This document shows positions 15,349 to 17,545 of a stretch of DNA of 43,654 nucleotides, piece after piece (within the stretch, counting starts at the first letter, position 1; each line of letters starts with the position of its first letter). The notes below the pieces were generated by a model that searched no databases, was not told the DNA's origin, and was given only the letters and a program-made list of their open reading frames with translations. The stretch is taken from positions 1-43,654 of the forward strand of contig JAKUUI010000013.1 of assembly GCA_022448485.1 (NCBI GenBank), given 5' to 3'. The stretch comes from SAR324 cluster bacterium. GTDB taxonomy: Bacteria > SAR324 > NAC60-12. The translations under genes and the position numbers were made by a program.

Positions 15349-16041
15349 TTATTTCCTGGAACCAAAAATAGCTGTCCCCACGCGAATCATGGTTGCACCT
15401 TCCTGAATAGCCCAATGATAATCAGAAGTCATCCCCATTGAAAGCTCTGTGATTTCAGCTGAACCAAGTTCTTGGCGAAGTTGATCCCGCCATCCACGGA
15501 TTTTTTCATAAATTTTACGAGTTGAAATTTCCCCGAGATTTGGGGCAGGAATAATCATCAATCCTCTGAATTTTAGCCAATGTCCTGCATTTAAAGTCTC
15601 CGCAACCTGCAAAATATCTCCCCATTCTTGGAGACCGGATTTGCTGCTTTCATGGGAAAGATTAACTTGTATCAACACGTTGATTTTTTTTTGGGCAAAA
15701 GCACAACGGGCTTCTAATTTTTCTGCCAATTCGATAGAATCAACTGAGTGAATCCATTTGAAATTTCCGGGACAGAACTTAACTTTGTTTTTTTGCAAAT
15801 GACCAATCAAATGCCATTCTAGCTCAGGATTATCAGTTAGTGCCTCAATTTTTTCTAGTGCTTCCTGAACGCGATTTTCACCAAATGCTGTTTGCTTGGC
15901 TGACAATGCATCTCGAATCATATCAACAGGTTTCGTTTTGCTAACTGCAATCAGCCGGATGTCTTCCGGAGTTCGTCCGGACTGGATTGCGGCTTGTTTT
16001 AGTTGTTGCCGAACGATAGCTAAATTTTCTTTGATTGACAC
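15349..16041 (-). CDS. yggS: PLP homeostasis protein, YggS/PROSC family
   Basis: The 230-residue protein binds PLP without known catalysis and buffers the free PLP/PNP pool. The binding Lys is in AVSKTKPV near residue 35; further motifs are FGENRVQEAL, WHLIGHLQKNKVK, and the phosphate-binding end RGLMIIPAP with SMGMTSDYHWAI and GTAIFGSRK. The start codon is GTG (16039-16041). It is transcribed divergently from the selenoprotein gene, with about 25 bp between starts, so the promoters overlap. Confidence 0.93.
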   Translation of the reverse strand: MSIKENLAIVRQQLKQAAIQSGRTPEDIRLIAVSKTKPVDMIRDALSAKQTAFGENRVQEALEKIEALTDNPELEWHLIGHLQKNKVKFCPGNFKWIHSVDSIELAEKLEARCAFAQKKINVLIQVNLSHESSKSGLQEWGDILQVAETLNAGHWLKFRGLMIIPAPNLGEISTRKIYEKIRGWRDQLRQELGSAEITELSMGMTSDYHWAIQEGATMIRVGTAIFGSRK

Positions 16042-16066
16042 TACACTTGCTCTCTAGTAATTATTG

Positions 16067-16858
16067 ATGTTAAAAGAATCTTTAATTGACAAACTTTGGG
16101 TTGCGCTTTTTCGTATTCCTCTAGTGAAAAATTTTTGGGCACGCAGTTATGAAGCAGTGCTCTTTGATCGCGTGCCTTGGACAAAGCTTAACAAACCGCT
16201 TCCAGAATGCAAAATAGCATTATTCACAACTGGTGGTATTCATTTGAAATCCGACGAAGCCTTTGATCTGGATGATCCACACGGAGACAGTTCATTTCGC
16301 CGAATTCCTCATGACGTTTCTCCGGAAGATTTAATAATAAAACATAAATATTATGATCACCGTGACGCAGACCGTGATCCAAATTTGATACTGCCTTTTG
16401 GGGTCTTACGTCAACTGCAAGCTGAAGGCAGAGTTGGTCGCTCCAACAAATATCATTACAGCTTCATGGGGCACATCGAAGAGCCACATCTAACGACTTT
16501 AATCCAAAAAAGTGCAGTTGATGCAGCAAAAGAAATTAAGCAGCAGAAAGTTGATATAGCCCTTTTGGTACCAGCCTGAGGTCTCTGCAACCAGACGGTC
16601 GGTCTGGTTCAACGTGAAGTAGAACGACAGGGCATTTCGACTGTAGGCATATCTATTGTCCGAAAGGTGACTGAGTCGGTCAAACCGCCACGTACCTACC
16701 ACTTGAAATACCCTTTCGGTCATGCCATGGGCGAAGCGTTCAATCTGCCTCAGCAAAAACAGATTTTTCGTGACTGCTTGGAAATACTGGAAACAGCAAC
16801 TGAGCCTGGAATAATCGTCGACAGCCCCTATCGCTGGAGAGGGCATCAGTTTGAATAA
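16067..16858 (+). CDS. Selenocysteine-containing GrdB/PrdB-family protein (in-frame UGA)
   Basis: An ordinary reading breaks this gene at TGA 16577-16579, but the frame continues without another stop to TAA at 16856-16858. Read through, it gives about 263 residues with LLVPA-U-GLCNQTVGLVQRE at Sec 171, the U-x-x-C site of the glycine/betaine/sarcosine/D-proline reductase selenoprotein B family. A hairpin with a GGUC loop lies 17 nt after the UGA. The N-terminal half has LFTTGGIHLK and an EDLIIKHKYYDHRDADRD segment typical of these proteins; the C-terminal half keeps YPFGHAMGEAFN and PYRWRG. No grdA, grdE or other reductase subunits adjoin, so a free-standing redox role is more likely than the full reductase complex. 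The start may be TTG 16064 or ATG 16067. Confidence 0.88.
16580..16609 (+). promoter_or_regulatory. Bacterial SECIS element of the GrdB/PrdB-like gene
   Basis: Within the coding mRNA, AACCAGAC (16589-16596) and GTCTGGTT (16602-16609) pair perfectly over 8 bp around the five-base loop GGTCG. The GG of the loop starts 18 nt after the UGA (17 nt between). A GGU(C) apical loop at that spacing is what SelB recognises in E. coli fdhF/fdnG SECIS elements. It explains why the UGA is decoded rather than read as stop. Confidence 0.85.
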
Positions 16859-16903: not shown

Positions 16904-17545
16904 CTACTGCAACTCTGCTTTCCAGAGCCCTACTTGAAGTTGTTTAGCTTCATTTTCTGCAGCCAACAATTCTTCATGCTCTGGGGGTGGTTCGTTTTCC
17001 AGGAGATAAAATGACCAACCATTCCGGATTAACCATACATTTATGTTTGTATCACCAGTCCAGACCATGCCATCCAGCCGGAATAATTTTTCAGAGAAAT
17101 CATAATTGATTCTCACCTGCCTGTTGTAAAATATCTTCTGCATCTCAAAAGCTGCTTTTTTACGGAACCACTCGTTGTATTCCTTGCCGTGACTGATGGA
17201 AAGCTTTGGTGAAACATATTTTAACCAAACACGCACTTCCTGACGTGACAAATTCAGATTTTTCTTGGATAGTTTGAAGGTCCATTTACGATATTCTGAC
17301 CGGTTTTCAATACGAATCCACACGCTTTCAGAGTCAGTAACTCTACTAATAACTCCAATTAAAATATTTTCGCTGACAGTACGGAGAGGCTTTAACTTTT
17401 TCCTGTCATCCATCCGTCCGAAAAGTTTCTGACGAATCGTTTCGGTTTTAAAAAAACCTTCTTCCGCTCGGACTTCCAGGATCTGGCCACCCAAACTTCC
17501 AAATAAAAAGAAGATTGCCATCAACAATATTCTATAAAAACTCAT
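16904..17545 (-). CDS. Secreted staphylococcal-nuclease-like (SNase fold) protein, probably catalytically degenerate
   Basis: The 213-residue protein starts with a signal peptide (ILLMAIFFLFGSLGGQILEVRA). The rest follows the SNase pattern: GVISRVTDSESVWI for the strand that normally carries DGDT, a vRL-like strand EVRVWLKYVSPKL, the later Arg in KLFRLDG, and the C-terminal NINVWLIRNGWSFYLL and LLAAENEAKQLQVGLW. The two Arg residues are kept, but the Asp/Glu of D-x-P-E that bind Ca are replaced (SPK), so nuclease activity is doubtful. It may be an extracytoplasmic binding protein. Converges on the selenoprotein gene. Confidence 0.7.
   Translation of the reverse strand: MSFYRILLMAIFFLFGSLGGQILEVRAEEGFFKTETIRQKLFGRMDDRKKLKPLRTVSENILIGVISRVTDSESVWIRIENRSEYRKWTFKLSKKNLNLSRQEVRVWLKYVSPKLSISHGKEYNEWFRKKAAFEMQKIFYNRQVRINYDFSEKLFRLDGMVWTGDTNINVWLIRNGWSFYLLENEPPPEHEELLAAENEAKQLQVGLWKAELQ

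Follow-up and report, generated by a model that had tools for sequence, protein, structure and literature searches.

A gene on the forward strand of a SAR324 contig (positions 16067–16858) very probably encodes one whole protein of 263 residues whose internal stop codon is read as selenocysteine (Sec). We consider it highly likely that the product is a single-chain selenoprotein of the PrdB/GrdB superfamily, with Sec171 inserted by means of a SECIS hairpin, that it acts in redox chemistry without a pyruvoyl subunit, and that it is not D-proline reductase. At the level of sequence, the comparisons establish the position of the UGA, a predicted SECIS hairpin with covariation, and purifying selection before and after the codon. 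The window, by which we mean the whole stretch of 43,654 nucleotides that was analysed, is contig 35 of a 2.7 Mb MAG comprising 246 contigs and 87% complete.

An in-frame UGA in a PrdB-like gene

From the ATG at 16067 (an alternative TTG start lies at 16064), the 263-codon frame is interrupted only once, by a TGA at 16577–16579 in the motif PA-U-GLCNQTVGL, with 170 codons before it and 92 after it, and ends at the TAA at 16856–16858. Searched separately against TIGR04483, the PrdB equivalog model, the pre-TGA piece matches positions 19–144 (E 5.8e-27) and the post-TGA piece positions 149–235 (E 3.3e-10). The two halves match adjoining stretches of the model and are therefore consecutive parts of one protein, and the tail alone bears out the expectation that family sequence continues for 92 codons past the TGA. 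The program-made list of open reading frames (ORFs) has no entry for the tail; gene calling would therefore probably yield a single truncated ORF of 171 codons, without the tail, rather than the two broken ORFs that had been anticipated.

A homologue of the gene is present in 45 of 58 relatives. The SAR324 orthologues (42–88% identity) are collinear across the TGA, which occupies exactly the same codon in all 29 that are complete. On the species' own branch, we counted 22 synonymous and 2 nonsynonymous changes in the codons after the TGA, and 30 and 5, respectively, in those before it. Pairwise dN after the TGA among the 29 complete orthologues is 0.04–0.10, with dS mostly above 1. Both the own-branch counts and the low dN past the TGA therefore place the tail under strong protein-level selection. 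Together with the hairpin covariation described below, the invariant TGA and the selection on both of its sides uphold the original prediction of a hidden selenoprotein read through its UGA. At one locus (L039), the antisense frame is open as well.

A SECIS hairpin downstream of the UGA

At 16589–16609 on the forward strand, the sequence AACCAGAC-GGTCG-GTCTGGTT can fold into a bacterial SECIS (bSECIS) hairpin with a stem of 8 bp (16589–16596 pairing with 16602–16609), of which the seven inner pairs form the conserved part, and a GGUCG loop of 5 nt (16597–16601). The hairpin begins 9 nt and its loop 17 nt past the UGA, and its folding energy is -13.1 kcal/mol, which is not significantly different from that of shuffled sequences (z -1.1 to -1.7). 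The published bSECIS model allows a loop of 3–9 nt, a stem of 4–16 bp, a G in the first two loop positions, a spacing of 16–37 nt and an energy of at most -7.5 kcal/mol (PMC13188914), and the hairpin lies within every one of these limits. The proposed bSECIS, with its GGUC loop 17 nt from the UGA, has thus withstood both this comparison and the analysis of covariation.

Across the 29 orthologues, the four lowest third-position entropies among the gene's 57 fourfold-degenerate columns fall in codons +6 to +9, which correspond to the hairpin loop and the flanking stem. Six fourfold columns within 12 codons have a mean entropy of 0.69 bits, compared with 1.62 elsewhere, and synonymous sites are most constrained at the hairpin. 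Covariation was assessed in 33 Sec homologues, including those from other phyla and paralogues. Pairing is retained in 97.4% of cells at the hairpin, as opposed to 12–46% when the hairpin is slid, and the compensatory pairs (C-G/U-A, G-C/A-U and A-U/U-A) include 36 cells in which both sides have changed. The covariation score of 0.424 exceeds those of all slid versions and is reached by none of 500 shuffles, which take no account of how the sequences are related. In the Cys homologues of Roseomonas and Haematobacter, the corresponding codon is TGC and no such hairpin is present.

Selenocysteine machinery in this genome and its sisters

The Sec machinery expected by the original prediction was recovered in part. 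This genome contains an intact selB (C2:26351–28237, 378.7 bits) and a selD of full model length with one in-frame TGA (C166:240–1163, 350.3 bits); selA was not found in the 87%-complete MAG, and selC is represented by a 5' remnant. A tRNA-Sec probe from a sister genome gave one match in this genome, covering 38 nt of the 5' half (C201:12305–12342). The syntenic selC locus (C201:12300–12487; loci L176, 1300–1488, and L177) consists of a degenerate 5' tRNA part of 38–43 nt, altered in the acceptor stem and the anticodon, followed by unrelated sequence up to the contig end; contig C201 is collinear with the sister locus as far as the remnant and divergent for its last 145 bases. We rejected the remnant as a tRNA-Sec with a UUA anticodon, as it has no 3' half, a damaged acceptor stem and no ARAGORN or Rfam match. 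Within the genus, a tRNA-Sec scores above the cut-off in 8 of 17 genomes and selA is common, and the sister genomes contain selA, selB and selC, with selA and selC intact.

A break of this kind at the selC locus could reflect an integration hot spot, a rearrangement or decay. Decay would fit the alternative that the Sec system is being lost in this species, with selC decayed, selA gone and the gene a recent relic that is functional in sister species, and both the degenerate, truncated selC locus and the missing selA point in that direction. However, the codons past the TGA have been held to 22 synonymous against 2 nonsynonymous changes on this very branch, selB is intact, and selD still spans its whole model with the in-frame TGA in place. 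The MAG is also incomplete, several selA-bearing sister MAGs likewise have no called selC, and this last observation, together with the contig end 145 bases past the remnant, suggests a hot spot at which assemblies break. We therefore regard ongoing loss as improbable. Because selection acts on the tail and on selD, we presume that functional copies of selC and selA lie in unassembled sequence.

More broadly, the occurrence of selA, selB, selC and genes with an in-frame TGA in SAR324 argues that the phylum uses selenocysteine. The same findings suggest that two SAR324 single-cell genomes listed as 'orphan SelD' in Table 1 of an earlier study (PMC5029168) are just incomplete. That study was the one paper in the full-text search to cover both SAR324 and selenoproteins; selenium goes unmentioned in a paper devoted to the SAR324 phylum.

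Family membership and missing reductase partners

The read-through protein scores above the cut-offs of PF07355 (45.9 bits, cut-off 22) and TIGR01918 (66.3, cut-off 65.45), and its best NCBIfam match is TIGR04483 (E 1.1e-44), for which its score of 152.7 is below the cut-off of 300, while PrdB of Peptoclostridium acidaminophilum reaches 310.2. For glycine reductase GrdB (TIGR01917), the corresponding values are 66.3 against 602.2 in score and 263 against about 431 amino acids in length, and PF09338 is absent. The description 'GrdB/PrdB-like' accordingly holds for the superfamily (PF07355, TIGR01918) but does not extend to the PrdB equivalog, and no PrdA/GrdE-type subunit accompanies the protein in SAR324. 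In our tree, in which several forks are weakly supported, the SAR324 orthologues group with Sec proteins of other phyla, with PrdB and GrdF more distant.

Given these matches, the gene could be taken for the PrdB subunit of D-proline reductase, or GrdB of glycine reductase, serving amino-acid fermentation. Apart from TIGR04483 being the best match, this reading has in its favour the UGxC motif common to true PrdB and the practice of the marine surveys, which in their treatment of the family name such proteins proline reductase PrdB (PMC1088965, PMC2398784). It is contradicted by the score less than that of the equivalog cut-off and of genuine PrdB, and by the partners: profile searches found no PrdA, the pyruvoyl subunit, in 58 genomes and no PF09338, the family of PrdA, GrdE and GrdG, in 20 SAR324 genomes, with the control plasmids and records positive in these searches. 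The neighbours are housekeeping genes. Within the genus, the gene is flanked by a divergent YggS-like gene (15349–16041) and a nuclease-like gene (16904–17545), with ispG, an HD hydrolase gene and argS also close by, consistent with the earlier suggestion of a free-standing gene with no reductase subunits nearby. Fermentation also sits poorly with the ecology of marine SAR324, which is common in oxygenated water too (PMC9031357). A protein that would act without a pyruvoyl (PrdA-type) subunit is therefore not D-proline reductase; the gene product is neither that enzyme nor glycine reductase, and a reading as either, which we consider very improbable, is largely refuted.

Outside the genus, no conserved gene partner recurs in other families, and the neighbours change. 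A functional partner deduced from gene order was rejected, as the order is kept only inside the genus and at three near loci, and there the neighbourhood as a whole is conserved. Among the comparison loci, prdB with a TGA at the Sec codon is located on large plasmids of Ligilactobacillus salivarius (L098) and Enterococcus raffinosus (L095). For the P. acidaminophilum plasmid (L094), the annotation table has no gene just upstream of prdB, and a PrdA-like frame upstream of it (W03:258978–260267) scores 556 bits with the PrdA model, below the cut-off.

Residue 171 and the proposed function

Residue 171 falls in the same alignment column as the TGA of the PrdB genes of P. acidaminophilum, E. raffinosus, L. 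salivarius and A. noterae and as a Cys of the alphaproteobacterial homologues (Roseomonas, Haematobacter); for GrdF, the correspondence to its TGA is by motif. The TGA at 16577 is hence located, as proposed, at the Cys/Sec position of the family, with Sec in clostridial and lactobacillal PrdB and Cys in Alphaproteobacteria. As scored, the column contains 59 U and 8 C in 71 rows, and four firmicute PrdB rows scored as C have TGA in the DNA. That the gene is a pseudogene, or its TGA a misread TGC or TGT, leaving a Cys enzyme or a dead protein, might be argued from these Cys homologues and from a MAG without intact selA and selC. Against it stand the TGA shared by 29 of 29 separately assembled orthologues, the SECIS covariation, and a frame kept under strong purifying selection past the TGA, own branch included. 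The protein-level selection on the tail excludes this reading for practical purposes, and we assign it almost no weight.

The family varies at and around this position. Some remote homologues from other phyla (L151, L153, L154, L156) have Gly or Ser in place of Sec and are probably non-redox members, so the wider family may include proteins without the redox residue. SAR324 genomes also contain further PrdB-like Sec paralogues (L157, L158, L159, L160, L161, L163–L168) with the motifs UPVC, UQVC and UPNC, and paralogues in two genomes (G050, G047) have UPLD, that is, Sec without a resolving Cys, which suggests that some members can do without the UxxC pair.

An AlphaFold model built with 13 sequences (pLDDT 88.4, pTM 0.88) places residue 171 between a strand (164–168) and a helix (172–187). 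Reactive thiols and selenols are often found at the junction of a strand and a helix. A search of solved structures gave no fold matches within E 0.001 and no sequence relative (the best match is alanine racemase, E 0.58), so structural comparison offers no pointer to the substrate.

As a plausible mechanism for the selenoprotein, SelB carrying Sec-tRNA would bind the hairpin, 9 nt downstream of the UGA, and the ribosome would put in Sec171 rather than stopping. Sec171 and Cys174 (UxxC), at the start of the helix following the beta strand, could then form a selenol/thiol redox pair; such a UxxC pair has already been noted for the Sec PrdB family in the corresponding part of the Sargasso Sea study (PMC1088965). 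By analogy, this pair may reduce or reductively cleave a small substrate and may be recycled by cellular thiols, all without a pyruvoyl subunit. We infer a small reductase of the selenol/thiol type whose substrate is soluble.

Comparison with known systems

PrdB of D-proline reductase (P. acidaminophilum, E. raffinosus, L. salivarius; TIGR04483) shares 31–35% identity with the SAR324 protein over about 84% of the length and has its TGA at the same aligned position. The two differ in motif (AGUGTCHR in PrdB, PAUGLCNQTVGL in SAR324), and D-proline reductase PrdB shows no cleanly folding hairpin like that of the SAR324 clade at the corresponding position. In E. raffinosus and L. salivarius, PrdA and PrdD adjoin PrdB, whereas the SAR324 gene stands alone. 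In this last respect, it resembles the alphaproteobacterial genes (Roseomonas, Haematobacter) annotated as 'glycine/sarcosine/betaine reductase selenoprotein B family protein', which likewise have no adjoining Prd or Grd genes. However, these proteins have Cys rather than Sec at the aligned position (NCPVC, NCPIC), are 26–29% identical to the SAR324 protein, extend further at the C-terminus, and fall in the tree with a different SAR324 Sec paralogue clade (UPVC).

The closest parallel is the Sec 'PrdB' of marine metagenomes, known since 2005, with 42 sequences in the Sargasso Sea data, where it is among the commonest selenoproteins (PMC1088965), and 235 in the GOS survey, where it is the seventh largest selenoprotein family (PMC2398784). 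As characterised in the relevant parts of these surveys, it has in common with the SAR324 gene PF07355, UxxC with Sec and the marine habitat, and the two most likely represent the same family. Sec PrdB of marine bacteria is thus already known, and the SAR324 gene belongs to that kind. The parts of the surveys that treat this family (PMC1088965, PMC2398784) name no host and describe no genome context, whereas the present gene comes from SAR324, in which PrdA was sought and not found. What is new is this host, the missing proline reductase partner and the evidence for selenocysteine use in SAR324. As the catalytic partner of D-proline reductase is missing there, filing this abundant marine selenoenzyme under D-proline reductase is misleading. 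We lean towards the view that the marine 'PrdB' selenoproteins, at least those of SAR324, form a separate and widespread selenoenzyme family without a pyruvoyl subunit and with a substrate other than D-proline. If so, these genes offer no basis for inferring proline reduction in the surface ocean.
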